Origin: Steromphala cineraria
Taxonomy: Eukaryota > Mollusca > Gastropoda > Trochida > Trochidae
Assembly (NCBI GenBank): GCA_916613615.1
Contig: OU744720.1
Span: 77,961,338 to 78,025,337, forward strand
Reading direction: 5' to 3'
Length of the DNA: 64,000 nt
The notes below the pieces were generated by a model that was not told where the DNA came from, did no database searches, and worked only from the letters and a program-made list of their open reading frames with translations. Position numbers and translations under genes: made by a program. Below, one piece after another: positions 32,856 through 62,002 of this stretch (within the stretch, counting starts at the first letter, position 1; each line of letters starts with the position of its first letter).

Positions 32856-32867
32856 AACTATCTTCTC

Positions 32868-35800
32868 TTAATGATTTTGATAAAAAATCATTTTACCTTT
32901 TTTAGTATGGATTTTAGATCTACTGGAAGGGCGTTTCTGACTACCAACCACTTGTATGTTGGGATTTGTCTCTGGGACTCCGGCCTTGATCGGTTTGGTG
33001 TCTTGAAACTCTGACGTGTTGAGATTTGTCTCTGGGACTCCGGCCTTGATCGGTTTGGTGTCTTGAAACTCTGACGTGTTGAGATTTGTCTCTGGGATCC
33101 CGGCCTTGATTGGTTTGGTGTCTTGAAACTCTGACGTGTTGAGATTTGTCTCTGGGATCCCGGCCTTGATCGGTTTGGTGTCTTGAAACTCTGACGTGTT
33201 GAGATTTGTCTCTGGGATCCCGGCCTTGATCGGTTTGGTGTCTTGAAACTCTGACGTGTTGAGATTTGTCTCTGGGATCCCGGCCTTGATCGGTTTGGTG
33301 TCTTGAAACTCTGACGTGTTGAGATTTGTCTCTGGGATCCCGGCCTTGATCGGTTTGGTGTCTTGAAACTCTGACGTGTTGAGATTTGTCTCTGGGATCC
33401 CGGCCTTGATTGGTTTGGTGTCTTGAAACTCTGACGTGTTGAGATTTGTCTCTGGGATCCCGGCCTTGATCGGTTTGGTGTCTTGAAACTCTGACGTGTT
33501 GAGATTTGTCTCTGGGATCCCGGCCTTGATTGGTTTGGTGTCTTGAAACTCTGACGTGTTGAGATTTGTCTCTGGGATCCCGGCCTTGATCGGTTTGGTG
33601 TCTTGAAACTCTGACGTGTTGAGATTTGTCTCTGGGATCCCGGCCTTGATCGGTTTGGTGTCTTGAAACTCTGACGTGTTGAGATTTGTCTCTGGGATCC
33701 CGGCCTTGATTGGTTTGGTGTCTTGAAACTCTGACGTGTTGAGATTTGTCTCTGGGATCCCGGCCTTGATCGGTTTGGTGTCTTGAAACTCTGACGTGTT
33801 GAGATTTGTCTCTGGGATCCCGGCCTTGATTGGTTTGGTGTCTTGAAACTCTGACGTGTTGAGATTTGTCTCTGGGATCCCGGCCTTGATCGGTTTGGTG
33901 TCTTGAAACTCTGACGTGTTGAGATTTGTCTCTGGGATCCCGGCCTTGATCGGTTTGGTGTCTTGAAACTCTGACGTGTTGAGATTTGTCTCTGGGATCC
34001 CGGCCTTGATCGGTTTGGTGTCTTGAAACTCTGACGTGTTGGGATTTGTCTCTGGGATCCCGGCCTTGATTCGTTTGGTGTCCTGAAACTCTGACGTGTT
34101 GAGATTTGTCTCTGGGATCCCGGCCTTGATCGGTTTGGTGTCTTGAAACTCTGACGTGTTGGGATTTGTCTCTGGGATCCCGGCCTTGATCGGTTTGGTG
34201 TCTTGAAACTCTGACGTGTTGAGATTTGTCTCTGGGATCCCGGCCTTGATCGGTTTGGTGTCTTGAAACTCTGACGTGTTGGGATTTGTCTCTGGGATCC
34301 CGGCCTTGATCGGTTTGGTGTCTTGAAACCCTGACGTGTTGAGATTTGTCTCTGGGACTCCGGCCTTGATTGGTTTGGTGTCTTGAAACCCTGACGTGTT
34401 GGGATTTGTCTCTGGGATCCCAGCCTTGATTGGTTTGGTGTCTTGAAACTCTGACGTGTTGGGATTTGTCTCTGGGACTCCGGCCTTGATCGGTTTGGTG
34501 TCCTGAAACTCTGACGTGTTGAGATTTGTCTCTGGGACTCCAGCCTTGATTGGTTTGGTGTCTTGAAACTCTGACGTGTTGGGATTTGTCTCTGGGATCC
34601 CGGCCTTGATTCGTTTGGTGTCTTGAACCTCTGACGTGTTGGGATTTGTCTCTGGGATCCCGACCTTGATTCGTTTGGTGTCCTGAACCTCTGACATGTT
34701 GGGATTTGTCTCTGGGGCCCCGACCTTGATTCGTTTGGTGTCTTGAACCTCTGACGTGTTGGGATTTGTCTCTGGGATCCCGACCTTGATTCGTTTGGTG
34801 TCCTGAACCTCTGACGTGTTGGGATTTGTCTCTGGGGCCCCGACCTTGATTCGTTTGGTGTCTTGAACCTCTGACGTGTTGGGATTTGTCTCTGGGATCC
34901 CGACCTTGATGGGTTTGGTGTCCTGAACCTCTAACGTATTGGGATTTGTCTCTGGGGCCCCGACCTTGATTCGTTTGGTGTCCTGAACCTTTGGCGTGTT
35001 GGGATTTGTCTCTGGGATCCCGACCTTGATGGGTTTGGTGTCCTGAACCTCTGACGTGTTGGGATTTGTCTCTGGGGTCCCGACCTTGATTCGTTTGGTG
35101 TCCTGAACCTCTGGCGTGTTGGGATTTGTCTCTGGGGCCCCGACCTTGATTCGTTTGGTGTCCTGAACCTCTGACGGGTGAGGAATTGTCTCTGGGGCCC
35201 CGACCTTGATGGGTTTGGTGTCCTGAACCTCTGACGTTTTGGGATTTGTCTCTGGGGCCCTGACCTTGATTCGTTTGGTGTCCTGAACCTCTGGCGTGTT
35301 GGGATTTGTCTCTGGGATCCCGACCTTGATTCGTTTTGTGTCCTTAACCTCTGACGTGTTGGGATTTGTCTCTGGGGCCCCGACCTTGATGGGTTTGGTG
35401 TCCTGAACCTCTGACGTTTTGGGATTTGTCTCTGGGGCCCCGACCTTGATGGGTTTGGTGTCCTGAACCTCTGACGGGTGAGGAATTGTCTCTGGGGCCC
35501 CGACCTTGATGGGTTTGGTGTCCTGAACCTCTGACGTTTTGGGATTTGTCTCTGGGGCCCCGACCTTGATTCGTTTGGTGTCCTGAACCTCTGACGTGTT
35601 GGGATTTGTCTCTGGGGCCCCGACCTTGATTGGTTTGGTGTCCTGAACCTCTGACGTGTTGGGATTTGTCTCTGGGGCCCCGACCTTGATTGGTTTGGTG
35701 TCCTGAACCTCTAACGTGTTGGGATTTGTCTTTGGGGCCCCGACCTTGAATCGTTTGGTGTCCTGAACCTCTAACGTGTTGGGATTTGTCTTTGGGATCC

Positions 35801-37436
35801 CGACCTTGATGGGTTTGGTGTCCTGAACCTCTAACGTGTTGGGATTTGTCTTTGGGATCCCGACCTTGATGGGTTTGGTGTCCTGAACCTCTGACGTGTT
35901 GGGATTTGTCTCTGGGGCCCCGACCTTGATTCGTTTGGTGTCTTGAACCTCTGACGTGTTGGGATTTGTCTCTGGGGCCCCGACCTTGATTCGTTTGGTG
36001 TCCTGAACCTCTGACGGGTGAGGAATTGTCTCTGGGGCCCCGACCTTGATGGGTTTGGTGTCCTGAACCTCTGACGTGTTGGGATTTGTCTCTGGGGCCC
36101 CGACCTTGATGGGTTTGGTGTCCTGAACCTCTGACGTGTTGGGATTTGTCTCTGGGGCCCCGACCTTGATTGGTTTGGTGTCCTGAACCTCTGACGTGTT
36201 GGGATTTGTCTCTGGGGCCCCGACCTTGATTCGTTTGGTGTCCTGAACCTCTGACGTTTTGGGATTTGTCTCTGGGGCCCCGACCTTGATTCCTTTGGTG
36301 TCCTGAACCTCTGGCGTGTTGGGATTTGTCTCTGGGATCCCGACCTTGATGGGTTTGGTGTCCTGAACCTCTAACGTATTGGGATTTGTCTCTGGGGCCC
36401 CGACCTTGATTCGTTTGGTGTCCTGAACCTCTGGCGTGTTGGGATTTGTCTCTGGGGCCCCGACCTTGATTCGTTTGGTGTCCTGAACCTCTGACGGGTG
36501 AGGAATTGTCTCTGGGGCCCCGACCTTGATGGGTTTGGTGTCCTGAACCTCTGACGTTTTGGGATTTGTCTCTGGGGCCCCGACCTTGATTCGTTTGGTG
36601 TCCTGAACCTCTGACGTGTTGGGATTTGTCTCTGGGGCCCCGACCTTGATGGGTTTGGTGTCCTGAACCTCTGACGTTTTGGGATTTGTCTCTGGGGCCC
36701 CGACCTTGATTGGTTTGGTGTCCTGAACCTCTGACGTGTTGGGATTTGTCTCTGGGGCCCCGACCTTGATTCGTTTGGTGTCCTGAACCTCTAACGTGTT
36801 GGGATTTGTCTTTGGGATCCCGACCTTGATTGGTTTGGTGTCCTGAACCTCTGACGTGTTGGGATTTGTCTCTGGGGCCCCGACCTTGATGGGTTTGGTG
36901 TCCTGAACCTCTAACGTGTTGGGATTTGTCTTTGGGATCCCGACCTTGATGGGTTTGGTGTCCTGAACCTCTAACGTGTTGGGATTTGTCTTTGGGATCC
37001 CGACCTTGATGGGTTTGGTGTCCTGAACCTCTGACGTGTTGGGATTTGTCTCTGGGGCCCCGACCTTGATTCGTTTGGTGTCTTGAACCTCTGACGTGTT
37101 GGGATTTGTCTCTGGGGCCCCGACCTTGATTCGTTTGGTGTCCTGAACCTCTGACGGGTGAGGAATTGTCTCTGGGGCCCCGACCTTGATGGGTTTGGTG
37201 TCCTGAACCTCTGACGTGTTGGGATTTGTCTCTGGGGCCCCGACCTTGATGGGTTTGGTGTCCTGAACCTCTGACGTGTTGGGATTTGTCTCTGGGGCCC
37301 CGACCTTGATTGGTTTGGTGTCCTGAACCTCTGACGTGTTGGGATTTGTCTCTGGTGCCCCGACCTTGATTGGTTTGGTGTCCTGAACCTCTGACATGGT
37401 TTCCATATAGACCAGGACGACGTTTCTGACTACCAT
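32868..37436 (-). other. Second, overlapping open frame through the gene A repeat array
   Basis: This frame is open for 1522 codons across the whole 60-bp array and encodes units such as SEVQDTKPIKVGAPETNPNT and, in the distal third, EFQDTKPIKAGIPETNLNTS. It ends with a unique GSQKRPSSRSKIHTKKGK-containing tail. It is shifted by one base from the frame fixed by splicing from the PAN-like exon, so I do not treat it as the gene. GSQKR also occurs in the splicing-defined frame just upstream of the array, so a frameshift could once have joined the two. Confidence 0.5.
32960..37395 (-). repeat. 60-bp coding minisatellite, ~74 units, no indels
   Basis: About 74 consecutive units of exactly 60 bp, in perfect register from about 32960 to 37395. 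There are two subfamilies. The distal block (about 32960-34600) has 'tcttgaaactctgacgtgtt' with 'gggatcccggcc'. The proximal block (about 34600-37395) has 'tcctgaacctctgacgtgtt' with 'ggggccccgacc'. Seven units at 35761-36180 recur in the same order at 36901-37320, an offset of 1140 bp (19 units), so blocks have been duplicated. All plus-strand frames are closed. Confidence 0.95.
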
Positions 37437-40046
37437 GTTGTCTAGACCCTCTCGATGGATGATTTGGATTTCTCGAGCCCGATCCGTGATTAGTTTGTTG
37501 CCCTGAACCTCTGACGTGTTGGTCGTGACCTCGCAACCATTGATGGCTAAACCGACTGCTGGACTGACGATGACGACGGCCAGTGTGAGAACCGTGAGCT
37601 TTGTGTCGGTGTCTCCTTACAGCCCATCCTGGGTATTGTTTTGGTGTAATGCCGTCTGTTGACTCACTTTCTTGATCAGTAGTGCCTTTCGACCCAGTGA
37701 CTTGTACCAAATGACTCTTCATGAGTCTTCTTTTAGACAATCCTGGATATATTGTTTTTGTATTGCGCTCTATGGACCAAACGACCAGATTTGTATGGCC
37801 TGTCGACAAATTGTCTTCTGAAGTACGACCTGTTGACCTGCTGTCTCGATCAACATGGCCTGTCGAGTCTTTGTTTTGATCAGAATGTCCTATCGCCCTA
37901 CTGTACCGTGTAGAATGACCTTTTAACCCTCTATCTTGATCAGTATGTTCTTTTGACCCACTGTCTTTAGTAAAACGGCCAGGCGACAATCTGTCTTGAT
38001 CAGTATGTTCTATTAACCCATGTTCTTTTGCAAAACGGTCTGCCAACCCTCTGTCTTGATCATGATAACCTATCGACCCGCTTACTTTCATTTGACGGTC
38101 TACGGATCCACCATCTTGATCAGTTCGTTCTGTTGATTCATTGACTTGTGTAGTACCTCTGGGCCCACTGTCTGGATTAGTGTAGCCTACAGATTCACTG
38201 ACTTGTGAAGTACCTTTGGACCCAGTGTCTGGATCAGTGTAGCCTACCGATTCACTGACTTGTGTAGTACCTTTGGATCCACTGTCTGGATCAGTGTAGC
38301 CTACCGATTCATTGACTTGTGTAGTACCTCTGGGCCCACTGTCTGGATCAGTGTAGCCTACGGGTTCACTGACTTCTGTAGTACGGCCTGTTATCCCTCT
38401 GTCTTGTAATTCTTCCAAGATTGCTGATTGAACCTGGAAGGAGGAACGTGTTAAATAATGATCTCTCTTTATGATTACACAGTGAAAATTCATGTTAAGC
38501 CAATGCCAGTATGTTGTTGACCAGTCAGAATAAATGATTATGTCTATTCTAACATGTATTCGTATTTTACCTTTTTTTTTTAATTTCCATGTATTTAAAC
38601 TTTAATGCTATTTATTTTCAAGTACTTTAAAGGGGCAGTAGCACGTTTTAGGGGGTATATAAGGTGATGTCAGGAAAATAAAAATGAATGGTTCCAATTG
38701 AAAGACAATGTATTTAAACAAAATGGAGCAGTAATAACTGAAATATATAACGTAAAGTTTAGCCATGCGATTGCTTTTTCTTACACAAAATGAATTAAAG
38801 ATGTTTACACAAAATGGCCGCCAATGGATTTTATATGAATCTTCATGCTTTGTCGTCTGATCATGGATGATTGGTTTGTGTAATGAGATTTTTGACACTG
38901 TCAAAATAATACATTTAGCGTTAACTTACAATTATCAGTGAACATTTTAAAATATAAAATTAGCAAAAAACGTGCTACTGCCCATTTATATTACTTTAAA
39001 TTGAATAAACGCAAACATAAAAATGGTAAATTCAATGTCGCATGATTCTAAAACATTGTTTTTTAGTGCAAAACAACATTTAAAAAAAAACTGTCATAAT
39101 CTAAATCGTTAGAAGTCATTTCCCGTTTTGATAAAGGTCACATGTCATAAAATAAAATTGATATTTTAACTTGCATCCAGGATGGACCAACCTCTGTGAC
39201 ATTAAACAAAGAACGACTAACAGCTTCGTAGTAGACGGGGTTTAGTGGCCTTTTTGATTCTCCAAACCACTTCGCAATTCGTATATGGAAAAGGTTACTC
39301 AAAATGTACCTTGAGATTTTCAAGTTGTTCTTAACAGTGCATTTTCACATTTTGACATATCGATAACTCAAGAAATGTTTTAATCACATGACATGACGCA
39401 ATTTTGATAATAGTGATTTTAAAAACATTTCCAATGCAACCCATATTTAGGTATCGCCTCTTAAGGGTGAAATACTAAAGAGCTAAATTTATACATTAAG
39501 CACGTTAGTATATATCTAGATGCAATTCGTCATTACAATAGTTTGGTCCAACTTACTAAAACGACATGCAATGAAATTGTGACAAAAGTATATCTCAAAT
39601 TGACTTTGTAAATCACAAGTTTCTAGTTAATATTTTTTAAGAAAATCTGTCAATTTGCGATTTGGATTGGAAAAAAAGGTTACAAACGAGTACATGAAGA
39701 GGTTTTACGGAGGACAAAAAAACGTGAGTATTGCCCAATATGTAATCCTAGGTTGAAATATTGCATTGTTATGAATACCTTTTTAAGTTTAGATAAATGC
39801 AGTCCTTTGACAAAGCAAATGTGTCTTCTGTTCTTAGTTGTAGCTTCAGTTTCAGTATCTGTTGAGAGAGACCGACATTGCCCGCTGTAGAATGAGATCC
39901 TGCCACAAGGTGTAGAGAGCACACACTGCACAGCACAGTCGAGTCTTGATCTGGAAGTCCAGGAGTGGAGAGGAGACTTTCTGATACTTGAACATCCTCT
40001 CGAGAACTTCGTGGAGCTTGTGGACGAGTCTGTAGGGACCACCACA
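35344..40046 (-). CDS. Gene A: PAN-like module plus 20-residue basic repeats (partial 5', premature stop)
   Basis: Two exons are clear. Exon 40046-39779 (acceptor 'attaacag', donor AAG|gtattc) encodes the six-Cys PAN/Apple-like module (LDCAVQCVLSTPCGRISFY; Cys spacing 18-3-5-9-19). Exon 38433 onward (acceptor 'ctccttccag') continues in phase 0 as VQSAILEELQDRG. Residues then form 19-20-residue units (VGYTDPDSG.., later TDQDRG..) followed by the 60-bp array read as VRGSGHQTNQGRGPRDKSQH. A TAA at 35346-35344 (TCA to TAA in one unit) ends the frame after 1029 residues of this exon. Without it the frame would stay open to a TAG at 32943-32941, 1830 residues. The product is strongly basic and Arg/Gly/Gln/His-rich. 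The signal peptide and first exon(s) were not found in 40.05-47.3 kb. Likely secreted, because PAN modules are extracellular; the function is unknown. Confidence 0.72.
38631..38984. mobile_element. TTAA-flanked MITE, copy 2
   Basis: It starts 'aggggcagtagcacg' after TTAA at 38627-38630 and ends '...aaaaaacgtgctactgccca', where the right TTAA has decayed to 'tttata'. The interior matches the copies at 4153, 43727, 44705 and 53774. It lies in the gene A intron between the PAN-like and repeat exons. Confidence 0.85.
38985..39778. other. Gene A intron sequence
   Basis: Sequence between the MITE and the donor of the PAN-like exon. I see no further feature. Confidence 0.5.
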
Positions 40047-40925
40047 CTGTTAATTGATAAAAGTCTAAATTATAGTGTTAATGTTTGCTGGTTCTCAAAA
40101 TGACATTGCTTTTATCAGTGTGAATATAATAATAATGTAAATAATAAGGATTATTTTTTTGTTTTCAACTTATACATAGTTGAATGGGCCGTACAGTTGT
40201 ACAACAAACAGTTCTCCTGGCATAACATTGGTATAGTTGCTTTTCGGCTCTTGTATTCGTAGTCATATCATACCAACAAACGCTGTATTAAACAAGGTGT
40301 ACTTTAACGATACATTTGGCTAACAACATTTTTTTTAAATTAATACTTTAATGTAAACATAGAAACTTCACATACCTGAAGAATAAAGTGGACAAAATCA
40401 GTTTAATCAAAGGCATTTTATCCTCCAGTATAAATATTTCTTTACAGAAAACTACTTACAAATAGCATTTTCGAATTACCTTCATTTAATAATAACTGTG
40501 GATAGATTTCTCAAAACGATACACAATCCATGGCATTCATTAACTTCTTAACCCTGTAATGCTGATATATTTGTTTAACTATCAGTGAACAACATCGGTT
40601 TATCAACGTGCAGAGTGTTTATCCAATGGTTGGAATGCCTTCTTTATAAAGCGAATTTTATCTTCTTGTATCAGTATGAAATATAAGCACGTGTATAGAC
40701 TTCAGTGGCACCAGGGCTTCTTTAATCTCCAGGAGAAGAGGTGGATGAGGCCAAACAATGTAAACAGTATTCATTTGAAACTTCATTTGAAGATGTGTAT
40801 GGATAAGGTCATTAAAATTCCATGGGGTATTATCATTAGTATATCATAGGTGTTATGGAATGTATGATTTAAAAATCATTTAAAGAGTCATTGAAAGATG
40901 AACATTGTCTTATTCAATGACAATG
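40047..40925. other. Upstream intron of gene A
   Basis: By phase, at least one coding exon ending in phase 2 should lie upstream of 40046. I could not identify it in this stretch. Confidence 0.4.
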
Positions 40926-41038: not shown

Positions 41039-41159
41039 GGGAGAACACTGAATGTTAAAATTAAACATTTTACTGTAATGGTCATCAACATCCTCGCCAA
41101 ATTAGTTTTTTGGTAAAGTTCCCATCATTTTCCTACATGGACATAACTCTGTTGCCTTT

Positions 41160-42099: not shown

Positions 42100-43135
42100 T
42101 GAACAAGACCCTTTCATGAACTGTCACAATGCACAACGAGGTTATAGATTCAATTATGGCAAGGCGTAGATTATCAATAGGGGAGATATGGCGAAAACTT
42201 TGTAGCGGAATGTTCTGCTGAGTTATTGCTAGACAGTTGGGGTATCACCGTGTTATCACACGCTTGGTACAAAAACACGTTAAAAAATGATGTGAAAGAC
42301 CCTGTGAGATCTGTAACCTCTGTACATGAAGACAGACCACTGATTCAGAACGTTAGACGCCTCCCCTTCACTAGTTCCTAAGTACTGAGGAATAACTGGA
42401 TTACCCACAGGAGGGTTTCCATATCAATGGAATCGCCTTCGAGCGGATGGTTATAGGGCACGTACACCTCTCAACCGCGTGAAATTATCACATTAAATAT
42501 TAAATATTCATTAATGAACGTCTAAGGTGGTGTAGAGGATGGGTTGAAATTTGGCATCATGGCGCTGGATCCATTGGTCTGATGAATGTAGGATGCTATT
42601 GTATACTGTGAATGGCCGAATTCGTGTTTGGCGACAAGCTAACACCCGTGGCTCTGTGATGATATGGAGTTGTGTCTCCTACGGTTGTAAACTCGACCTT
42701 TTGACCATGTGACGGTTCAAGGTTCCAGGTCCAATGGTCAGAAATATCGAGTAAACATCGTTCTCATGTGGTAAATCCACGATTCGACAACCACCCTCTT
42801 CGTACAAGACCAGTTTACATGGATGAAAATGCTAGACCCCACAGAGCCTCAGTGGTAATACAGATTCAACAGCGGAAAGCAATAACAATGCTACCAGGGC
42901 CTGCTTGCAGTCCCGACCGATAGAACATCTATGGGATATTCTTGGTCGTCGTATACGTGCATTGTAGAAGAGACCCACCTGTCCAAACTGTGACAGAGAA
43001 GGATGCAGCACTTTATCAGGAGTGACAGCATATTCCTCAACAAGGCATACAGAGACGAATACGTATCATGTCGAGGAGGGTCAATCAAGTCATCAATGCA
43101 CAAGGGTCATACACTCGCTGTTGACTAAACACTGG
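42100..43135 (+). pseudogene. Decayed Tc1-like transposase
   Basis: Fragments readable on the plus strand with frame changes are an N-terminal helix-turn-helix-like RQLGYHRVITRLVQKH (about 42230-42280), WSDE followed by LLYTVNGRIRVWRQANTRGS (about 42565-42655), and a C-terminal PIEHLWDILGRRIRAL (about 42915-42965) followed by RRVNQVINAQGSYTR (about 43073-43120). These match the order of motifs in Tc1 family transposases, including the SDE and PIEHLW landmarks. Many frameshifts and stops show it is dead. Terminal repeats were not located. Confidence 0.82.
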
Positions 43136-45061: not shown

Positions 45062-45580
45062 TTAAAGGTTATAATATGTAAAAATACCACCATAAACTCA
45101 TTGTATATCACACTTAAAAAAGTAGCTCCAAGGATCGAAATTATCAAATGTTTATTACTCATCTTAATAGCTATTAATTCAAATAGAAGTTCGAAAAACG
45201 CAATAATGGGTAAAATACACTGAGAGGTAAAGCGGAATGTTTGTTAGCTTTTCGATTAGTTTAAGTATCGCGTCGTCCTTTCTTTTCTTCAGTGTATGCA
45301 TGCAAAAGCAGGAAAATGCATGTAAACTATATATGTCTTCGTACCAAAAATAGTTCTGTTGTAAACAGTAAAACCATGTGGTCTAAAGAGTGTCGATAAA
45401 CTGTTTCATAATCATATCTCAAGAGTTGCATCCCTATTCTGGAACAAAATTGGTAGAAATGATGTTTCTGACGCCATTGTTAGTCAAAATTAACGATAGG
45501 CTAATTGTGTTCGATGACCAATCGTCAACGTTTTGCTTTATAAACCATCTCATATAAGCTGACAATCTAAATAACTATGA

Positions 45581-46050
45581 ACTGTTTGTGACGTCGAATT
45601 TGATTGATCAAATCGCGAATTCCTTATTTGCATACGAAAGGTCACCGGGACGACCTCTCACACTGGTCAATCTTAGATCAACAGTTTGACAAAATAACAA
45701 ATCTGTTGATCTAAATTTATTTAGATTGGAACGACTATTAACTGTTTGTGACGTCGAATTTGATTGATCAAATCGCGAATTCCTTATTTGCATACGAAAG
45801 GTCACCGGGACGACCTCTCACACTGGTCAATCTTAGATCAACAGTATGACAAAATAACAAATCTGTTGATCTAAATTTATTTAGATTGGAGCGACTATGA
45901 ACTGTTTGTGACGTCGAATTTGATTGATCAAATCGCGAATTCCTTATTTGCATACGAAAGGTCACCGGGACGACCTCTCACACTGGTCAATCTTAGATCA
46001 ACAGTATGACAAAATAAAAAATCTGTTGATCTAAATTTATTTAGATTGAT
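45581..46050. repeat. 160-bp tandem repeat, three units
   Basis: Units start at 45581, 45741 and 45901 with 'actgtttgtgacgtcgaatt' and are nearly identical. Each contains short self-complementary words ('ttgattgatcaaat', 'gatcaacag...ctgttgatc'). A diverged fourth copy lies at about 46524-46672, separated by other sequence. Confidence 0.92.
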
Positions 46051-48187: not shown

Positions 48188-51036
48188 CTATCCCATAATT
48201 GAACCTATACTCTGAATAAACCCCCCCTCCATAAAATTGTCAACCATTTTATTGACCCGATTAGCTGTTCTAGCTTGGTTTTCCTTGTTTTTACTGTCAC
48301 TAAATCCATTTTTTCTGTATTTAGCTTTTCGAGCCGGATTACCATTGTTTCTGGGTTGATCACCTTGATTTCTAAACCTTGCCCGGTTTTTAAACCTCCC
48401 TTCCTGGTAATCTCGCTTTTCAAACTCCTTTTCTAGAGTTCCAGCATTACGAAAACGGTTTGCATGTGAATTCTGGTTTCTAAAGCTTCTGGCTTGATTT
48501 TCCCGTTTTTTAAAGCTTCTGGCTTGATTTCCCCGATTTCTAAAGTCTTCTTCCTGCTTTCTCTGGTTGGCTTGGTTTCGAAAGTTTCCAACTCTTCTAG
48601 ACCCCCTCTTTTCTTGAGTGCCTCTGGTTGGAGCATTTTGTTCTCCATTGCCTCTTCCTTGACTGTCTTGTCTGAACACTCTTGCCTGATTATTTTGACC
48701 TCCAGCCCACCCGCCTTTACTGCCCTGCTGTCGTTGTCGTCTTGCTTGATTATATTGACCAGCGACATCTCTGCCTTGACGGCCCTGTTGTCGTTGTCTT
48801 CTTGCTTGATTATATTGACCAGCAACATCTCCGCCTTGACGGCCCTGTTGTCGTTGTCTTCTTGCTTGATTATATTGACCAGCATCATCTCCGCCTTGAC
48901 GACCCTGTTGTCGTTGTCTTGCTTGATTATATTGACCAGCGACATCTCCGCCTTGACGGTCCTGTTGTCGTTGTCTTGCTTGAATATATTGACCAGCAAC
49001 ATCTCCGCCTTGACGGCCCTGTTGTCGTTGTCTTCTTGCTTGATTATGTTGACCAGCAACATCTCCGCCTTGGCTGCCTAGCTGTCGTTGTCTTGCTTGA
49101 TTATATTGACCAGCAACATCTCCAGATTGACGGCCCTGTTGCCGTTGTCTTGCTTGAATATATTGACCAGCAACATCTCCGCCTTGACTGCCTTGTTGTC
49201 GTTGTCTTGCTTGATTATATTGACCAGCAACATCTCCACCTTGACGGCCCTGTTGGCGTTGTCTTGCTTGAATATATTGACCAGCAACATCTCCGCCTTG
49301 ACTGCCTTGTTGTCGTTGTCTTGCTTGATTATATTGGCCAGCAACATCTCCGCCTTGACTGCCTTGTTGTCGTTGTCGTCTTGCTTGATCATTTTGACCC
49401 GCAACAACTCCGCCTTGACGGCCCTGTTGTTGTTGTTGTCTTGTCTGAATATATTGATCGACGCTCCTTCCGCCTTGACTGCCCAGTTGTCGTTGTCGTC
49501 TTGCTTGATTATGTTGACCGACGCTCCCTCTTGATTGACTGCCTTGTTGTCGTTGTCTTGCTTGATTATGTTGACCAGCAACAACTCCGCCTTGACTGCC
49601 TTTATGTCGTTGTCTTGTTTGATTATATTGACCGACGCTCCCTCTGGATTGCCTGCCCTGTTGTTGCGACCGTTTTGCATTAATGTATTGACCAAGAACA
49701 TCTCCAGATTGACTGTCCTCTTGCCGTAAGCCACTTGCTAGCATTTGTTGACCGACGCTCATTTTCGATCGACTGTCCTTTTGTCTTTCTTGACTACTTT
49801 GGTCCCTGATCCTTCCCGCTTCAATGCTCTGGGGCCTCGGTTCTCCTGCTTGGTTATTTCTGCCACCAACGCCTCCGGGCCGACTGTCTTGTTTTCTTAC
49901 CCCTTGTGCTTGGTATTTTTCAAATCCAAATCCATGGCCTTGGTGATTACTTGTTGGTGTTTTATTATTTTGGTCTCCAACCTCGCTGGATCGACTTCCC
50001 TGTTGTTCTAACCCCCTTGATTGGTTACTTTGGTAGTTCTCTGGAGCGCCGGTTTTGTACTTGGAATCTGAAAGAAAAAATAGTCTTGTTCATTTATCAA
50101 ATTGTTAGTAACCTTTTTGAAAACAAATATTTTATCATTATCGCCTTTGACTTTCTCTAAAACATTTTAAATACTATCAGCAAGCTGTTATGTGATCATT
50201 CAAACTTGAATCCTTCTTGTATCAAATAAGATCATATTTAGAATATCATGTTCTATCTAGGGTAAACGCAATCTTAAATTAGAGCGACAAATTAATAAAA
50301 TATCGAAGTTTAAATCTTGTAAAATTTGGCCGATTCTACAAAAATCTTTTATTAAGCAGGTGTTCATTTAGAATAGAGAGTATTTTGAATCAACCAATCA
50401 GAATCATGTATGAATACATCTAAATCATGATAAATTGTTTATCATAGTGACTTGCTTATTTGTTTCTTTTGGTCTTTAATAGTTACTCATATTCTGTTAT
50501 TTTTGATAATCTGAGTTATATCATCCCCCAAATGTAGTATGTAATGTTTTGGTCGTGTAGAAGACTTAAGAAACAATAGTTACATTTCATTAACCAGGTT
50601 AGTGGTGAATCTTCTACGTCAGAAGGAAATTAACCTTTTTATTTCAATTACTGGTTGATTAGTTACTTGCTTTATCATTTATGAAATTATAAATTCGTCT
50701 TTAACAAGAAAAATATTTTGTTGTCACTAGATATCAAAATAATAATATGTCTTTTGGTCGATCATACCATTTTCTTCCCTAGTGAGGCAATCATTTTTAT
50801 TGTTCTCGCTGATTGCATTATTCCCAGGGACTGTTGAGAGAGACTGACATCGTCCGCTGTAGAAGGAGATCCTGCCACAAGGTGTAGAGAGCACACACTG
50901 CACAGCACAGTCGAGTCTTGATCTGGAGGTCCAGGACTGGAGAGGAGACTTTCTGATACTTGAACATCTGCCTCTCGAGAACTTCGTGGAGGTTGTGGAC
51001 GAGTCTACAGGGACACTCTCACTCGCAACCATCACA
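48188..51036 (-). CDS. Gene B: PAN-like module plus RQ-rich 19/20-residue repeats (partial 5')
   Basis: Exon 51036-50768 (acceptor 'atctttccacag', donor AATG|gtatga) enters in phase 2 and encodes the six-Cys PAN/Apple-like module (LDCAVQCVLSTPCGRISFY; spacing 18-3-5-9-19). It leaves in phase 1 and joins exon 50067-48188 (acceptor 'tttttctttcag'), 625 further residues to the stop. This exon has a degenerate start, then about 20 units of the type ARRQRQQGRQGGDVAGQYNQ, then a C-terminal part with 10-residue units such as NQARSFRNQ and a GGFIQSIGSIMG end. The product is extremely basic and Gln/Arg/Gly-rich. An ATTAAA lies at 48121-48116. The upstream signal-peptide exon was not securely found. 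Antisense open frames across the array are shadows. Family unknown to me; extracellular by the PAN module (inference). Confidence 0.78.
48710..49790 (-). repeat. 57/60-bp coding minisatellite of gene B
   Basis: Units of 57 or 60 bp ('ccgccttgacggccctgttg', 'tcgttgtctt', 'gcttgattatattgaccagc' on plus) with length changes only in multiples of three (ARQRQ or ARRQRQ). About 18-20 units are present, more diverged toward the 5' end of the gene. Confidence 0.92.
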
Positions 51037-51073
51037 CTGTGGAAAGATATTTGTCGAAAATATAATTTGTTTC

Positions 51074-51330
51074 CATCCTGTCGCAGGGTACGAACGTTAC
51101 GCTAACTCCACTAATCTGTACCCTGGGCTAAGAAGCTAGATTCGCTCGCACGGGCCGACCTGGGATATAGCCAATCAAATCATTTTCTCGCCACCTTCTC
51201 GATAACATTTCAACAAGAAAATGATTTGCTTGGCTATATCCCAGGTCGGCCCGTGCGAGCGAATTTAGCTTCTTAGCCCAGGGTACAGATTAGTGAAGTT
51301 AACGTAACGTTTGTACCATGAGACAGGATG
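51074..51330. mobile_element. Palindromic MITE with 9-bp target duplication (family M, copy 3)
   Basis: 257-bp element from 'catcctgtcgcagggtacga' to 'ccatgagacaggatg', flanked by ATTTGTTTC (51065-51073 and 51331-51339). Its interior is a longer inverted repeat than the copies at 11167 and 23572, and it folds into an almost continuous hairpin. It starts only 37 bp upstream of the gene B PAN-like exon. Confidence 0.9.
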
Positions 51331-51339
51331 ATTTGTTTC

Positions 51340-53770
51340 ATGAATTTAGTTTTCATATTTTTATTATCACATATCATTAATGATGTTGCTGTATTATTAT
51401 TGTTCTAATGTCTTTCTACATGTACCTTTGATATAGATATCTTCGTAAATATATGTCGAGATATGAAGTGAATGAGTACATCGCATTCTGCATCCATTAT
51501 TTTATATCTTACTAAACTCCAAACTATTCGACCTTACTATTTTAAACTAGGTATTCGGCTCATTCAAGATGTGCCTTGAAATTTTCAACTTCCTGGATTA
51601 ATTTTATTGGTTTGAATGGACACGAAACTTAGATCCTATCTGTAACTTAACTCTTAAACAATTAGGCCTTGCTCATTGAAACTAAGGATATCGATAACTC
51701 ATTATGTGTAGATTTGCCTTTTGGGATTTTAATTTTTTTCAGATTTATATTTTGTACGGTTTCCATGAAAATACAACTTTAAATTTTGTTTCCGAACATT
51801 ACTCGGAAACTTTTAGACCTAGCTAATTGAAACTGAGTACATTGATCAGCATATGACAATGAGTATTTTTTTTATGATTTTAAACTTTTTCTTCGGATAT
51901 TATTTTTGGTGGTTTAAATACAATTGGAACATGAAATTTGAAGATAACTTTTTTCTCTGTGTTTATTTTAAATAATATGCTTAATTGGGGGAACGGATGG
52001 ACATATCATCTTCTGATGACTCAAGTTATTGATATGACATATACAATATTTGAATGATATGATGATATCTGGTTTATCTTATTTCGCATTAAACAAAGTT
52101 TTACAGGAACATTATTAGTAAAAGACTCACCTAAAGTAAACTGTTGAAATAAGTATTTCATATACAGTCATTGTTCTTCGAAGGTGGGAAATCACAACAC
52201 AATGCCTGCTGAATCCTTATCTTTACTTGTAATGGTCAAATAAACATAATGTCCATCCAATTAATTTTTTTATTAATAATTGAGAAGTTAATTGATAAGC
52301 TCCTTAATAAATAAATTATCAATCACAACGCTTTTGCTTTTACTCACATATCGGTTATTAAAATATACAATCTTATAAGATTCTATATCTTGAATATCAA
52401 AAGGTAAATAGGAATGAAATGTAAAAAAGTGAATTTAAATGAGAAACAAGCAATAGACGAGCAATAAAAGTTGTTAGACGTCCCTTGCAAAGTATTGGCA
52501 AGAATTTGCTGAATTCTGCAATCGGTTAGACAAATTCTGGTCTTGAAAATGACTAGGTACAAAACATAGAAATCTGTAAAAAAATTCTAAAATAAACAAA
52601 ATCACTAGTAATTTGGCACTCATATAATGTGAGAAGACATTTGCAGACATTGAAATAAATCAGACGAATAGTTTTTGATGCAAATTCTGATAATGAAAAA
52701 CGACTAAGTACAAAACACGGCAAATCATGAAATATAAAAATAAAATTTAAAAAATCGGTCATTATTTGGCACTGCACCCCTCCTATAAGAAGGCATTTGT
52801 AAAATTTGAAATCAGTTGGACGAAAAAAATTTCTGCAATAGGTCGGATGAATTCTGAAGGAAATGGCATAAGAAACATAAGAAAGTACACATAAGAAATG
52901 GTTAAAAAATATTTTAAAATTGTGGAAAAAACGCTGTGAAGAAATAGCAATACAATTTTGGAATATCTATCTTATATCTGGTTTCAGTTAACCTAAATCA
53001 ATTAAAAAAACTTTATACGTGTCCTTCTTTTTTAATTCACTAAAGCTCTACCTCAAAGACAATAAGTAGATGTCCAATAAACTTCCTAATATAGATTAAG
53101 TAAATTATTGAGGAAAAACGCTTTTCCAGAAATAACCATTCAATATTGGAATATCTAGGGCAAATCTACTGTGAGTGTTGTTATGTAGTAAATAATACCC
53201 GGTACCGAGGGGTTATGGCTTTTGATCTAATAAAGTCGTTTTCTTTATTTAAAACTTCTGTTTGAAATAAAGTCATTTTCTTTATCAAATATATTTTCCA
53301 AAATAAAGTCTTTTTCATTATCAAATTTATATTCTCCAATAATCTGTTTATCAAAGTTATTTTTCAAAGAAAATCATTTTATTCATAAAAGTTAGTTTTT
53401 TAAAACTATTATCTTCTTTCTATCATGGCAAAGTTTTATCAGATCAATCTTTTCAATTGAATTTAGTTTCAGTATTAAAATTCATTTACATATCATATCA
53501 GTTATATAAATATTCCAAGATTGTACAGAAAATATCTTAAGATATTCACATATTCCAAGATCAAATAGGAGGCTTTCGGTTTCTTTCGTATATCTGAAGA
53601 TTTCCGTACGTATCTTAACATTTTCATACGATCTTGGAATATTGAAATATTCCAAGATGGTATAGGACAAATTTTAAGATATTTTCTCCAGGATTGTATG
53701 GTACAAGCATATCTTATGCTATTTTAATTTTTTTGAAATGTATAAAAAACACTTTCAGTATTGTAGCAAT
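51340..53770. other. AT-rich stretch upstream of gene B with diverged direct repeats
   Basis: Between about 52545 and 52830, two to three diverged copies of a ~137-bp unit share 'gactaggtacaaaaca', 'aatttggcactc' and 'agaaggcatttg'-like words. At 53480-53700 'atattccaagat' recurs in both orientations. No supported exon. Confidence 0.5.
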
Positions 53771-53773
53771 TAA

Positions 53774-54117
53774 AGGGGCAGTAGCACGTTTTTAGGGGGA
53801 ATATAAGGTGATGTCAGGAAAATGAAAATAAATGGTTCCAATCTTTAGACAATATATAAAAACTAAATGGAGCAGTAATAAATCAAATATACAATGTAAA
53901 GTTAAGCCATGCGATTCCTTTTCTTACACAAAATGAATTTAAAAAAATGGCTGCCAATGGATTTTATGTGAATCCTCATACTTTGTTCTTTGACTACGGA
54001 TGATTGGTTTGTGTTATGAGATTTATGATACTATCAAAGTAATACATTTAGCATTAACTTATAGTTATCAGTGAAAAATTGAAAATATAAATTGTCAAAA
54101 AACGTGCTACTGCCCCT
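53774..54117. mobile_element. TTAA-flanked MITE, copy 5 (best preserved ends)
   Basis: Both TIRs are intact: 'aggggcagtagcacgttttt' and its complement 'aaaaacgtgctactgcccct'. TTAA flanks at 53770-53773 and 54118-54121. 344 bp, non-coding. Confidence 0.92.
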
Positions 54118-54228
54118 TTAATGAGAAGGAGACTGCAATGCTTTGGGAACCACATTAGTGCTGAAATAGAGACACGCAGAATGGTGTAAATGTTTTAGGA
54201 AGTATTCCATGTTAAAAGATTCATTTAA

Positions 54229-54340
54229 AGGGGCAGTAGCAAGTTTTTAGGGGGAAAAAGATGGTGATGTCAGGGAAATGAAAATTGATGGTTCCAATTG
54301 AAAGACAATGTATTTAAACTAAATGAAACAGTCATAAAAT
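54229..54340. mobile_element. TTAA MITE, copy 6, left-end fragment
   Basis: It starts 'aggggcagtagcaagttttt' after TTAA at 54225-54228. It follows the family through 'ggttccaattgaaagacaat' and 'aactaaatga', then similarity stops near 54340. The right half is missing. Confidence 0.82.
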
Positions 54341-54594
54341 TCGTAACTTTGACGACATTGAAAACTGTTTTCTATTGATAATATGCTCAATAGATTACAG
54401 ATGAGTCTATTTAAAAACGTGTTTTCTGTATGTAATGACATTTTAATTGTTATGTGTTCTTTATGAAAGTGGACTGTACCGTTGTTTTGCAAGTGAGTGG
54501 AACCGGTCTGCACCGGTTTGACCTAATCACATTGCTTTTGCGCAAGTCAAAATAGTTCCACCTTTTTTTACTAATTAGTCATGTTAGAATGGTG

Positions 54595-54702
54595 ATAAAT
54601 CCATTCTGTTTTTTATTTTGGGGTTTTATGTCGTGCATTCTTTACCCCTAAATAAAGAATGCACGACATACAACCCCAAAATAAAAAACAGAATGGATTT
54701 AT
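54595..54702. repeat. Near-perfect foldback
   Basis: The arm at about 54595-54645 ('ccattctgttttttattttg', then 'tcgtgcattcttta') is repeated inverted at about 54652-54702, with a loop of only a few bases around 'cccctaaa'. DNA or RNA would form a ~50-bp stem. Its class is unknown. Confidence 0.88.
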
Positions 54703-56066: not shown

Positions 56067-56506
56067 CATCCTGCTACATCAGCGTATATGTCTCCGCTAA
56101 TGCTACAACCTATCCCCTGATATCCTCCTATGGTCTTCTGTCGTATCGCTGACGGGTGGTTGCTCAGCGCTATTTATAGCCTGTCTGTTGTCAGTCAAAC
56201 TATTTCGAACTCCATACACTGTTTGTCTAGTCATGTCGCACGTGGAAATCTAAGAGTGCGTGATTTGGAGCTTAGCGGGATACTGCAGTGAGAATCAGAT
56301 TTATTATCTAATAGCACTCCTATTGGTTATTTTGAATCACGAGGTGAGCACGCGGAACGAAGCCAAGAAACTAGTTTGCCGCTATCGCTGAAAGGGCATC
56401 ATTTGATTGGCTTACTATATATAGCGATACGACAGAAGACCATAGGAGGATATCAGGGGATAGGTTGTAGCATTAGCGGAGACATATACGCTGATGAAGC
56501 AGGATG
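56067..56506. mobile_element. Palindromic MITE with 9-bp target duplication (family N, copy 2)
   Basis: 440-bp element. The left end runs 'catcctgctacatcagcgta', 'tatgtctccgctaatgctac', 'aacctatcccctgatatcct', and the right end is its reverse complement. It is flanked by the perfect 9-bp duplication AATTTTACG (56058-56066 and 56507-56515). It is the long relative of the 75-bp element at 46436. Confidence 0.92.
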
Positions 56507-56515
56507 AATTTTACG

Positions 56516-57747
56516 ACGATTTGTCAGTTTACAAGCAACAACATGTCATCACCGCGGCTTACAGCATGTGTCGCTGATATTTCTTCATAACTTCACAACC
56601 ATAAAAGCACGAGTAAATGTTCGTTTGCATATAACAATACAACAAACTAAATATGATAACGATAACTTACTATATTTTTAATTCTAAAGTATGTTTACAT
56701 TCGATCAAGAAAGTCCATGTTAAACATATTGACCTCTCATATAAATACCTTTTACAAGAGTGTCCAAACGTTTCTTATCTGATTATGAAAATTTGCAGAA
56801 AAGTTAAAACGATAACCAGCATTGATTATCACTGAATTTTGTCAAGCCCTTTCTCACTCGTCAACCCAACTGAAAACAATTCGCCCCATCTTTAACATTT
56901 CTCTTCTGACGCAACATTGTTCCTGTCTCTGTCAAATGAATGGCCACAGAGTTGTGTTTTCCAGCGAGAGGAGACAAGAAAGTCCGAGGGGTAAAGGTCT
57001 GAAGAATAGACAGGGTAGGCAGAAGCCAGAAGCCAGAGTCCTTTGTCGAACTCACTGCAATACGGAGATTTGTACAATTTCGCTTCTCTTTGAAATTTTT
57101 CCGTGTAATTGCCGCAGTTCATTTTGTAATAAAACCAGTGATAGTACACCCCATTTAACAAGTAACAAGTAACACAAGTAATAGTTACTGGCATAGTAAA
57201 TGGCATGCATCGTATAATGGCAGGGACACTTTGTCCGAGAGGCCAGTACGAGGCGGAGCCAGCTTGTTTTATTTGATTATTGATACTTTCAGTTCATTTC
57301 TATGTCTATGTTGTTGATTTATTGTTTTAAAGCTTGTGCACGAAAGGTTTACAAAAGTGTCCTTGCTTCAGATGTCAGGACTCTTTGGCCTAAGAGTTCC
57401 CGATACTGATAATGAACAGGACACTTTTATGAATGGTTGCTATAGACGACAAGGTCTAAGTGGGATGTACCGGGCCCAAAAGCCATAGAGGTTCGAATCG
57501 TTGATTTTACCTAATGCAAAGTTTAAAAAGATTATCTGTTTTGTGGCACGTATCGCTTTTATTTGTTCGGGTGAAGAAATAATAAAAACAAATAGACCTG
57601 TTATACAAAAACACAAGGGAGGACGTAGTCTCCGAACACTACAACCTGCTCGGAAATGGATAGTTTTATCGTGTGCTTTAAATCCAACCTTATGAACAAA
57701 ACAGTGCATTGAAATCGTAGTTTATTCTTTTAACTTGGAAAATAGGT
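56516..57747. other. Gene-less stretch
   Basis: No supported exon. Sequence near 57365-57450 ('taagagttcccgatactgat', 'atgaacaggacacttttatg') loosely resembles sequence near 42075-42130 beside the Tc1 remnant, so it may be another piece of the same element. Confidence 0.35.
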
Positions 57748-58065
57748 CACCAAAGCTATACATTATAATCCTCTCTGGTCAACGAGTCTGTAAAAAGGTT
57801 TCAGCTTTCTGGGCCTTGTGCTTCTGGAAAAGAAGATGAGGCAGGTTTTAAGGGTGTGGCCCCTGTGGCCCTTATTAGGGGCCACATAGTCACCAAAGCT
57901 ATAAATATAATCCTCACTAGTCAAGGACTATGTACAGAAAGTTTGAGCTTTCTGGGCCTTGAGCTTCTGGAGAAGAAGTCGAAAGTGCACAAAGTTTACA
58001 GACGGACGGACGCCGGACATCATGTCATGCCTTAAGCCCATCGGGCCTAAAAGGCCCAATGAGCT
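57748..58065. repeat. Two copies of a dispersed ~140-bp repeat with a mollusc-like tail
   Basis: 'gtcaccaaagctata' ... 'agctttctgggccttg' ... 'gcttctgga(a/g)aagaag' occurs at about 57747-57830 and again at 57890-57975. The second copy continues into 'acagacggacggacgccgga' and 'catcgggcctaaaaggccca', a tail of the kind found in many mollusc repeats. Confidence 0.7.
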
Positions 58066-58353
58066 AAAAAGGAAACTAATATGCAAACTCTTCATTTCTC
58101 AAACATTGATTGGGCTACAACAGATTAGACAATCGTCATAATTGTTTTCCAGGTTAAAGTGTTTTCATTTTTGATTTACGACAGGGAAGTTCCCGTTGCT
58201 ACGAACATGACCGTCTTTGAATAGGTGTAAGTCTTATTAAGGTATACTTTTTCAAACTAAACGCTTTACACGTATATAATAATTACAAGGCAAAGCCATA
58301 AATGCAGCGGTAGAATGATTGTTAAGATGCTGACGTAAATTGATTACAGTTGA

Positions 58354-61300
58354 CTATTTACCAAAAATCGAGCCTAACTTCTTAACAGGGCTTAATAAAC
58401 ACTTTGTAAGCATTGATTTAAATCCACTACATTCTTTTCTCAGTTTGGCTTTCATTTCCTCCTCTTCACTCCTATAGTCCTGATAATTCTGATCTCTGTA
58501 CTCCTCGGCTTGATTACCCTGATTTCTGTACTCATCGGCTCGATTACCCTGGTTCCTGTACCTTCTAGCACGGTTATCCTGCTCTCTAAAAGCTCTTGCC
58601 TTATAACCCTGACCTCTTAACCCTCTGGCTTGGTTACCCTGATCTCTAACTCCTCTGGCTGGGTTACCCTGATCTCTAAACCCTCTTTCCGGGTTACCTT
58701 GACCTCTTAACCCTCTGGCTTGGTTACCGTGACTTCTCAACCCTCTGGCTTGGTTACCGTGACTTCTCAACCCTCTGGCTGGGTTACCTTGATCTCTTAA
58801 CCCTCTTGCTTGTCCATCACGGCTTCTTAATTTTCTGGCTGGGTAACCTTGGCCTCTAAACCCATTGACTTTATTATCCTGTTTTTGAAACCTTCTGACA
58901 CGATTCAATAGGTGTTCGTACGGCTTTGCTTGATTATCCTGCTCTTTAAAATGTCTTGCTTTGTAATCCTGTCTAGCGTGGTTGCCCTGTTCTCCAAACA
59001 CTCTGGCTTGATTGCCTTGGTTCCTAAACCCTTCAGTTTGATTGCCTTGATTCCTATACCCTCTCGCTTGATTGCCTTGGTTCCTTAATCCTTTAGTTTG
59101 ATTGCCGTGGTTTCTAAACCCTCTAGCTTGATTGCCTTGGTTCCTTAATCCTTTAGCTTGATTTATCCGGTCTCTTAACCTTTCGGCTAGTTTGCCCCGA
59201 TCTCTATTTCCCACTGCTTGGTTGTCCAGTCGTTTGAACCCTTTGGCATTTTTACCCTGATCTTTTAACCCTTTGGCTGAATTATCCTGGTCACGTGACT
59301 CTCTTTCTCGAATACCTTGGTCTCTAATCATTCCTACTTGATTACCTCTGTCTCTGAATCTATTGGCTCGATTATCCTGGTATCTTAACCCTTTGGCTTG
59401 GTTATCCTGATTTTTAATCAATCTGGCTTGGTTACCCTGGTTCTTAAACATTCCTTCTTGGTTAGTCTGATCTCTATACCCTATGTTGTCGTTGCCCTGC
59501 TTTTTAGAATCTTCTATGTGTTTTAAAAAGTTTTTGGCAAGAACACTATGGTCTTTAAAATCCCTTTTGTTACTCTTTCTTTTAGACTGTTCGGAATGAT
59601 TACTATAGTTGCTCAATCCTCTTGTTTCATTACTTTTGGTTATAAAACTTCCAGCTTGAACCACCTCTTCTGATAATCTACCTGCGTGTTTCCTTCCATG
59701 CCTCAATTCTTTAACTTTCTTTAACTTTTCCCTTAACTTTTCCCTTAACTTTTCCTTTAATGCACCGTTATACATCCTACTTTGATGATAATTATTTCCC
59801 AACTTTCCGTGTTGACGTCGTAACCTTCTTTCTTGATATCGTAACCTACCTGCTTGATTAACCTGTTTTCGTATTCCATTGTTATTGATTTGATTACCAC
59901 TTTTTCTAAGGTCATTTCTTGGGTTATCCAGATCTCTAAAACTTCGAGATTGGTTCGTCTTAAAAATTTCTCTAGCCGCATTTTTGCTGTCACCCTGACC
60001 CCCTTCTGAGGTCTTCAGCACCGCCACATGATCGTAATTGTCTGCCCCTTGATGTTGGTTAGTAGTTCTGTCTGTTGTTTCAATACTTATAACCCCGTGT
60101 ACTGTTGCTTTTGTAACGCTGTCTGGAATTCCTCCTACTTCATTAGTAAAATCTGGATAACTCGAGTTTTCAGATTGAGGAGATACCAATTTTCTAGCTT
60201 GGTCAGTGATTTCTTTAAATGCTTCACTTTGCCTTATTTGATCTTTGATCCGTTTGGGGCGGCTTGTAATGTCTTCAAATCTTTTTTCATGACTAGTAGA
60301 GTATTTAAACTCCTGGTTTTTATTTTTTGGGTATTTACGTTTATCAGAGAGATGTCTGAATTTTTGTTCTGTGAAAGGTCTAGTTGTAGTGTTTTTACCT
60401 GTGTAACCTTCTGGTTGATTGGTGTGGTGAACGAAACCTTCCAGTTGATATGAACCATTTTTGGCCGTGTTGCTAAAACGATGGACGAACTCTCGAAAAT
60501 CACCAGTACGTTGTGTAAAGCCCGCACGTTGAGTAGTCTTGTCTGTGAATCCTCTAGGCTGATAGGAAGAAGGAGTGACGATTCTGGGTTGAACAGAACG
60601 ACCTGTGAACCCCCTTCGTTGACCTGTTAACTCTTCATGATGATTAGTAGGACTTGTAACGTCCCTTGGTAGATGTTTGCTACCTGTGGACCAGTTGCCT
60701 TGTTTAGTATGACCTGTGAACACCCTGGATCTAGTGGTACGTTGGGTAGGAAGTATTGGTAGGTTTGTGCGGCCTGTGAAGACGGATCCTTGATTGGTGG
60801 AGCCTGGAAGATCTCTTGGTCGATTGTTAGCGCCTAAAAGGTGTCTTGGTTGATTGGTCAGATGTGTAGGAAGTTTCGGCTGATGTGTACGGCTTGTGGA
60901 GACTTTTGGTTGATGATAACTGTCTATTGTCTGTCCAACTAGCCCATCACTGTTTCTTGAGTCTGCAAGTAGACAGCAAATAACCATACGCGGTTAAACT
61001 TCATGTATAAATTCATGTATCACGCATAACCTTAATTGATACCAAATACTTATAAGTGCAATCATGGTAGCGTATATTCATAATCCCTGCTATTTATATA
61101 TTGTTGCTTTATTTAAGGAAGAATCACACTCGGAGAAAAATCGGTTATTACATGCAAATTAAACTGTAACTAGAAAACGAAAAATGTCATTGTTGGAGTA
61201 CTCATATTTCCAATAACATCAATATTTGTTTCCATAGCGGTAGAAAACTAAATCTGATAAAGATTTTCCTTCAGATCGGAGTCCTATTAAATCTTTATAA

Positions 61301-62002
61301 ACGGGAAAATAAACTTCAAGAAGTTCCTTTATTCTTTAAGCAAAAGAGCGACTTTTGAATGATGGGCTCACAAAGGCGGTATATATCACTTTAAATGTCA
61401 TTGTTGGAGAACTCATATTTCCAATAACATCAATATTTGTTTCCATAGCGGTAGAAAACTAAATCTGATAAAGATTTTCCTTCAGATCGGAGTCCTATTA
61501 AATCTTTATAAACGGGAAAATAAACTTCAAGAAGTTCCTTTATTCTTTAAGCAAAAGAACGACTTTTGAATGATGGGCTCACAAAGGCGGTATATATCAC
61601 TTTAATGTTAGGGGCCAAATTGAATAAAATGTTAAGTAAATGATGAACATATTAATGAAGTGACATAGAAACATTGATTACACGTTTCTGTAATATACAA
61701 TTTTATGCTACAAACCCATTGCCATGTTGATACCATCAGCCCTCTTTATCAAACACAGGTTTCCGTTGCTTCGGGAATCTGCTTGGATCTTCGGATATGT
61801 TGAGAGAGACCGACATTGTCCGCTGTAGAATGAGATCCTGCCACAAGGTGTAGAGAGCACACACTGCACAGCACAGTCGAGTCTTGATCTGGAGGTCCAG
61901 GACTGGAGAGGAGACTTTCTGATACTTGAACATCTGCCTCTCGAGAACTTCGTGGAGCTTGTGGACGGGTCTGCAGGGACACTCTCACTCGCAACCATCA
62001 AA
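58354..62002 (-). CDS. Gene C: PAN-like module plus 10-residue NQAR repeats (partial 5')
   Basis: Exon 62002-61734 (acceptor 'caatccacag', donor GATG|gtatca) enters in phase 2 and encodes the six-Cys PAN/Apple-like module with the same spacing as genes A and B. It leaves in phase 1 and joins exon 60962-58354 (acceptor 'gctgtctacttgcag'), 868 further residues. This exon opens with a Thr/Pro/Arg-rich section (units like FTGRTNQPR, roughly the first 170 residues) and passes through a degenerate charged middle. It then gives about 30 units of a 10-residue repeat (NQARGLRNQG, GNQARGFRNH), and ends with an unrepeated tail rich in Glu/Lys with two Cys (MLTKCLLSPVKKLGSIFGK). Strongly basic. The missing first exon(s) lie between 62.0 kb and beyond the right edge. 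Function unknown; secretion is inferred from the PAN module. Confidence 0.78.
58480..59480 (-). repeat. 30-bp coding minisatellite of gene C
   Basis: Units of about 30 bp ('ctggcttggttaccctgatc', 'tctaaaccct' and variants on plus) encode NQARGLR-type decapeptides. They are best conserved at 58600-59170 and more diverged on both sides. Length changes preserve the frame. Confidence 0.9.
61184..61605. repeat. 211-bp tandem duplication in the gene C intron
   Basis: Two nearly identical copies starting with 'atgtcattgttggag' at 61184 and 61395 and ending with 'gcggtatatatcacttta'. They lie between the PAN-like exon and the repeat exon of gene C and differ at very few positions, so the duplication is recent. 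Confidence 0.92.

Follow-up and report, generated by a model that had tools for sequence, protein, structure and literature searches.

Three genes in the topshell Steromphala cineraria raise the question of how a protein family can keep one part almost constant whilst its remaining parts diverge until they barely align. The genes lie in a window (i.e. the whole stretch of DNA analysed) of 64,000 nucleotides, comprising bases 77,961,338-78,025,337 of the 98.8-Mb contig OU744720.1 in a genome of 1.27 Gb and 281 contigs, and all three are on the minus strand (locus A, ~40.4-32.9 kb; B, 52.2-48.2 kb; C, 63.3-58.4 kb). The best explanation, to which we assign a probability of roughly 0.6, is that they are tandem paralogues for secreted proteins with a PAN-like head and a cationic repetitive tail, that the heads have been homogenised by gene conversion and that the tails serve in a matrix, mucus or glue.

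Each locus has the same predicted anatomy of a 41-nt signal-peptide-like exon, a 268/269-nt exon encoding a six-cysteine module and a giant repeat exon. The six-cysteine exons start at 40046 (A), 51036 (B) and 62002 (C), at intervals of 10,990 and 10,966 bp, in agreement with an earlier reading of these letters (hereafter the original prediction) that placed three same-strand loci about 11 kb apart. Exon 2 measures 268 nt in A (39779-40046) and 269 nt in B (50768-51036) and C (61734-62002); it is entered in phase 2, and is left in phase 0 in A and phase 1 in B and C. The predicted splice sites are canonical (AG at 6/6 acceptors, GT at 6/6 donors), and reading frames of 729 (B) and 972 codons (C) run stop-free across the three predicted exons. 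The predicted order of a phase-2 six-cysteine exon followed by one long repeat exon was thus seen at all three loci; the giant repeat exon is open throughout in B and C, and in A a TAA breaks the predicted frame in the middle of the array.

Candidate first exons, each of 13 codons plus 2 nt with a phase-2 GT donor, were located upstream of the modules at 40376-40416 in A (MPLIKLILSTLFF then AG before the donor gtatgt), 52131-52171 in B (MTVYEILISTVYF, AG, gtgagt) and 63228-63268 in C (MVITKVIQAILSL, GG, gtaagt). These candidates supply the first exon that the original prediction had left to be found and move the upper limit of its cluster (32868-62002) to ~63268, the loci themselves being as described. 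When the 64 kb were scanned on both strands for hydrophobic 41-nt frames that open with ATG and end at a phase-2 donor, three were returned, one per gene, with thresholds chosen after the candidates were known; the B exon, the weakest of the three, was recovered only under relaxed thresholds. Widening the scan to 9-39 codons gave six candidates, one of the extra ones also upstream of A at 43031. Exon 2 opens with hydrophobic residues that extend candidate exon 1, so that each pair would form a signal peptide; by Kyte-Doolittle hydropathy only, 3/3 predicted proteins have a hydrophobic N-terminal core (2.0-2.4). The three loci are therefore predicted to encode secreted proteins.

The constancy of the heads is concentrated in a 60-61-codon block of exon 2 (A, 39857-40039; B, 50832-51051; C, 61798-62017) that is 93-95% identical in DNA among the loci. 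The C copy has 220 nt in common with B (95.5%) and 186 nt with A (95.2%). Between any two blocks there are 1-4 synonymous changes and 3-6 non-synonymous ones, and one codon is missing in A. The proportions of synonymous (pS) and non-synonymous (pN) differences were 0.022-0.088 and 0.022-0.045, respectively, as compared to a pS of 0.69-0.95 in the other 21 aligned codons of exon 2 (Fisher p 1.1e-4, 1.8e-9 and 1.5e-10, with block limits fixed after the exons had been inspected); these 21 codons are perhaps not homologous, and apparent saturation there may equally reflect replacement. The B-C block takes in ~15 nt of intron with the acceptor (51051-50832 and 62017-61798), and the blocks shared with A begin within the exon. 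Ungapped comparison of 300 bp on each side of the exon gave identities of 42-54% in the first 50 bp of intron and 14-36% at 50-300 bp. BLAST comparison of A 43500-38300, B 56000-49700 and C 64000-60600, which cover only the beginnings of the tails, detected no other similarity of >35 bp, bar a repeat common to A intron 2 and the region upstream of B.

Recent duplication of whole genes was rejected, as the introns would still align but do not. Because synonymous sites are conserved and the conservation ends inside the exon, recent homogenisation explains the constancy better than selection on an adhesive module, which the original prediction had implied in calling the module constant. These comparisons of three sequences from one genome strongly indicate that ~180-220 bp have recently passed between the loci by gene conversion (or copying); a one-off local exon transplant is a possible substitute for conversion. 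The identity of the head sequence does not date the family.

The relationship of the head to known domains was examined at several levels. All six cysteines are invariant in 3/3 modules with the spacing C-x18-C-x3-C-x5-C-x9-C-x19-C, as had been proposed, and the module thereby falls within the four to six conserved cysteines given for the PAN/Apple core in the accessible text of PMC9249922. PAN_1 (PF00024) ranked as the top Pfam family for C and A and second for B. A protein search of the genome with the module gave nine matches, i.e. the three cluster copies and six weak relatives (E 0.07-8), and no further strong match. A Pfam scan took in five of these six (L011-L014 and L016, leaving out L015): L014 and L011 exceeded the PAN_1 cut-off (29.5 and 25.0 bits vs 21.4), L012 was slightly under it (20.5 bits), and L013 and L016 matched no Pfam family at E up to 1. 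Pairwise E values of the module with L014 and L011 were 5e-7 and 4e-7, each from one comparison of a pair preselected by a search. A profile was built from 33 PAN exons of the genome, of which three had been retrieved with the module itself; against 2587 open reading frames (ORFs), it ranked the three modules first (E = 7e-5 to 2e-4), the next unrelated ORF having an E of 1.7. On these sequence comparisons, the module is a divergent PAN, homologous to accepted PAN domains via the intermediates L014 and L011 and the 33-exon profile. Its likeness to PAN_1/Apple lies in the six cysteines, with a C-x3-C-x5-C-x9-C core, and in the PAN_1 exons among its weak relatives; it differs in being sub-threshold, single and joined to a giant cationic repeat tail. 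The PAN-like label of the original prediction thus gains relatives among the PAN_1 exons of the genome and falls short at the Pfam cut-off, for which reason the module is named divergent PAN or PAN-like and not a member of PF00024.

PAN itself is common in this genome, which holds at least 150 PAN_1 places over the cut-off (150 of 150 scored, from 1802 candidates); judged from the surroundings of the few places inspected, the unusual part is the combination of head and tail. Among 30 PAN loci retrieved with PF00024, five with long frames were scanned and 5/5 encode PAN-Sushi-GON in one open frame. The PAN_1 complement is very large (e.g. L047, L054, L060, L066 and L069), with some places grouped on contig C35. 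On contig C41, two near-identical genes lie ~15 kb apart (L019, 7543-9046 on the minus strand, and the L012 region), in which a PAN_1 exon (25.0 and 20.5 bits) is followed by a basic frame of 261 aa (isoelectric points of 9.9 and 9.8) with no confident Pfam domain in the one copy scanned.

The predicted tails agree with the original description of a paralogous secreted family carrying strongly basic repetitive sequence. Exon 3 encodes 1029 aa in A up to the TAA (35344-38433), 626 aa in B (open from 50067 to 48188) and 869 aa in C (open from 60962 to 58354, with its stop at 58356-58354). Isoelectric points are 11.6, 11.6 and 10.7, and net charges +101, +65 and +86, for A, B and C, respectively. 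The commonest residues are G, R and Q in A, Q, G and R in B, and R, G, N and Q in C; cysteine is absent from the A and B tails and occurs twice in C. Processing sites in the tails were surveyed as a count of dibasic pairs. The tandem units measure 60 bp in A, 57 bp in B (19/20-aa units, e.g. GQYNQARQRQQGSQGGDVA) and 30 bp in C (NQARGxRxQG decapeptides). NQAR-type repeats and a similar C-terminus are common to B and C, whose best BLAST E was 2e-9, their compositions being alike. Amongst nine 19-aa units of B, the synonymous fraction of changes was 0.42 vs 0.25 expected (other frames, 0.18 and 0.08), from pairwise counts that are not independent. A genome search with the C tail returned a self match of 1922 bits, and the other 19 of 20 rows scored 23-47 bits, 13 with internal stops. 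Such scores and stops point to low-complexity likeness, and C-tail homologues elsewhere in the genome were rejected on this ground among the 52 of 364 candidates scored; the B tail was not among the 20 rows. An NCBIfam scan gave bacterial look-alikes far under their cut-offs (B, 14.6 of 117 bits; C, 25.1 of 750 bits). The C tail also resembled the Decapeptide repeat region family (PF25296; E = 5e-10, 39.6 bits, under the cut-off of 45), a resemblance that is likely composition-driven.

If these predictions hold, secretion would proceed via a signal peptide formed by exon 1 and the start of exon 2. The six-cysteine PAN head may act as a common docking or binding part for protein or glycan, both of which are bound by the PAN family according to the accessible text of PMC9249922. 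The tail, in which Gln, Gly, Arg and Asn abound, would be a flexible, probably disordered polycation that could form a matrix, mucus gel or glue by condensing with polyanions such as sulfated glycans or acidic proteins. Introns and tails would have evolved apart while the heads were homogenised, and conversion of the heads may let all tails dock alike, such that three genes could supply materials with different tail lengths and one docking head. More tentatively, the cluster might be a material kit of constant head and variable tails, in which recurrent conversion of ~200 bp keeps the PAN docking module identical among the genes, and the cationic tails, each expanding on its own, interoperable within one secreted matrix. 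If true, such a kit would give constant/variable multigene systems a counterpart among structural proteins. Secreted animal materials (e.g. shell matrix, mucus and glue) often evolve so fast that their families are difficult to recognise, and a conversion-held head with barely alignable tails and introns would show how such families can stay coherent.

DOPA (3,4-dihydroxyphenylalanine)-type mussel foot adhesives have Tyr-rich tails, and membership of this class was ruled out by the Tyr-poor tails of the cluster (10/1029 or 1.0% in A, 18/626 or 2.9% in B, 24/869 or 2.8% in C). Mucins carry Pro/Thr/Ser-rich, heavily O-glycosylated tandem repeats. The cluster tails are instead basic and Gln/Gly/Arg/Asn-rich without dense Pro/Thr/Ser, a composition that excludes mucin membership, and the likeness is confined to one huge tandem-repeat exon in both. 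Precursors of the conotoxin type have a head conserved even at synonymous sites and a diverged remainder. The likeness of the cluster to these is that of a constant head and a variable product exon, with no sequence relation claimed; it differs in that a PAN-like module is what stays constant and a giant repeat polymer is what varies. In mucin-type proteins, the single huge exon consists of tandem repeats in variable number, a general feature given in PMC13345508. Snail and slug mucus glues are described in the accessible text of PMC9873654 as networks of positively charged proteins and polyanionic glycosaminoglycans, and the cluster resembles these in the cationic composition of its predicted proteins. 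A literature search at the level of titles and abstract openings found no described PAN-headed shell, mucus or byssal protein; the PAN/apple text match in PMC7333891 was an author's name only.

Another use of the same architecture is in defence or gamete recognition, with a lectin-like PAN head and a cationic tail that is possibly antimicrobial or membrane-binding. The high net positive charge of the tails accords with such a role, as do their divergence and the tandem arrangement of the genes, both of which are seen in fast-evolving immune or reproductive families. Tails of 626-1029 residues are, however, far longer than typical cationic peptides, and this role is considered unlikely, though it survives better than the three other rivals (the four are not all mutually exclusive).

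Several results weigh against the reading of the cluster as conversion-homogenised secreted materials. The PAN_1 scores of the modules (C, 16.9; B, 14.3; A, 13.9 bits) are below the Pfam gathering cut-off of 21.4, and an independent profile of 30 PAN exons ranked the modules top with E = 0.016-0.13, which is not significant alone. The AlphaFold model of the module was poor (predicted local distance difference test, 62; predicted template modelling score, 0.46), and a fold search with this model matched no solved PDB structure. The Apple fold consists of one helix on a beta sheet; the low-confidence model has one helix (37-50) and strands. The best match in a PDB sequence search had an E of 0.19. 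GC content at third codon positions was 0.53-0.56 in the block and 0.27-0.39 in the tails, with an intron GC of 0.27-0.375. GC-biased conversion would leave such a raised value in the block, but a value of 0.52, near that of the block, also holds outside it in C exon 2, so that support from base composition is weak. In the tails, eight 20-aa units of B had a synonymous fraction of 0.30, which another frame equalled or exceeded. The fraction of 0.60 for 15 C decapeptides is inflated because units were picked by amino-acid pattern. The joining of exons in the three-exon models is predicted, and the material function is proposed from tail composition only. Finally, an in-frame TAA at 35346-35344 lies halfway through the A array, which gave no clear signal of amino-acid selection in any frame.

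The state of locus A bears directly on whether the cluster is largely pseudogenic, with arrays open by chance and A already broken. The A array (32957-37395) comprises 74.0 copies of the 60-bp unit with 94% matches and 0% indels and runs past the TAA; locus A also has four 57-bp units. A frame at 32868-37616 is open across the array, yet is not the frame entered from exon 2: a stop at ~37617 precedes it and cuts it off from the acceptor at 38433, and it was rejected as the main frame of A. As an unproven alternative, this frame could join a small downstream basic exon at ~31438 via a candidate donor at 32897. A fragment resembling a non-LTR (long terminal repeat) retrotransposon of the long interspersed nuclear element (LINE) type, as judged by eye, adjoins the 3' end of the array on the same strand (31817-32857) and had no Pfam match. 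The TAA, the lack of a clear selection signal in the array and the adjoining LINE-like fragment all favour decay, and the gene at A has probably been truncated or is in decay. Against extending this to the cluster stand the stop-free B and C frames with their canonical splice sites and the excess of synonymous change in the 19-aa units of B, which make a largely pseudogenic cluster rather improbable.

Strong purifying selection, acting either on the protein or on some signal at the nucleotide level, could have kept the block constant without gene conversion, and 40/43 residues from C24 to L66 (numbering of the C module) are invariant in all three copies. Selection at the protein level leaves synonymous sites free to change, yet these are conserved here about as well as the non-synonymous ones, beside synonymous neighbours at 0.69-0.95, and this counts against selection on the protein; a nucleotide-level signal in the block is a possible cause of constancy. 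Taken as a whole, this explanation appears improbable. Weakest of all, and very improbable, is an origin of the block as a mobile element or exonised repeat that was copied to three sites: the block is short with sharp edges and unrelated flanking introns, but a DNA search of the 1.27 Gb with the module gave three matches, all in the cluster, in the same orientation and exon phase and each between its own candidate signal exon and its own tail, with which the protein search agrees. This DNA search skips very common words, yet found all three copies, indicating that words of the block were used. Copies dispersed across the genome, which the original prediction had named as a sign of a transposable element, were thus not found, and the three DNA matches with only weak protein matches rule out a dispersed origin of the module.

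Neither the remainder of the window nor ~40 kb beyond C yielded a fourth family member. The neighbouring gene on the C side (L004) has a weak, sub-threshold match to the major facilitator superfamily. Several repeats and mobile-element remnants were observed around the cluster. A foldback element, resembling a miniature inverted-repeat transposable element, lies 37 bp upstream of B exon 2 (51074-51330; 115-nt arms, 94% complementary), with related stretches at 11211-11308 and 23652-23739. A non-LTR retrotransposon-like fragment at 27961-29565 on the plus strand has weak, sub-threshold matches to RVT_1 and zf-RVT. The repeat common to A intron 2 (38627-38988) and the region upstream of B (53770-54120 and 54224-54337) spans ~110-360 bp, is 85-87% identical and is unrelated to the exons. 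Recent local duplications are apparent in C intron 2, where 61182-61605 holds two copies of a 211-bp unit (99%), and at 45574-46048, which holds three copies of a 160-bp unit (98%).

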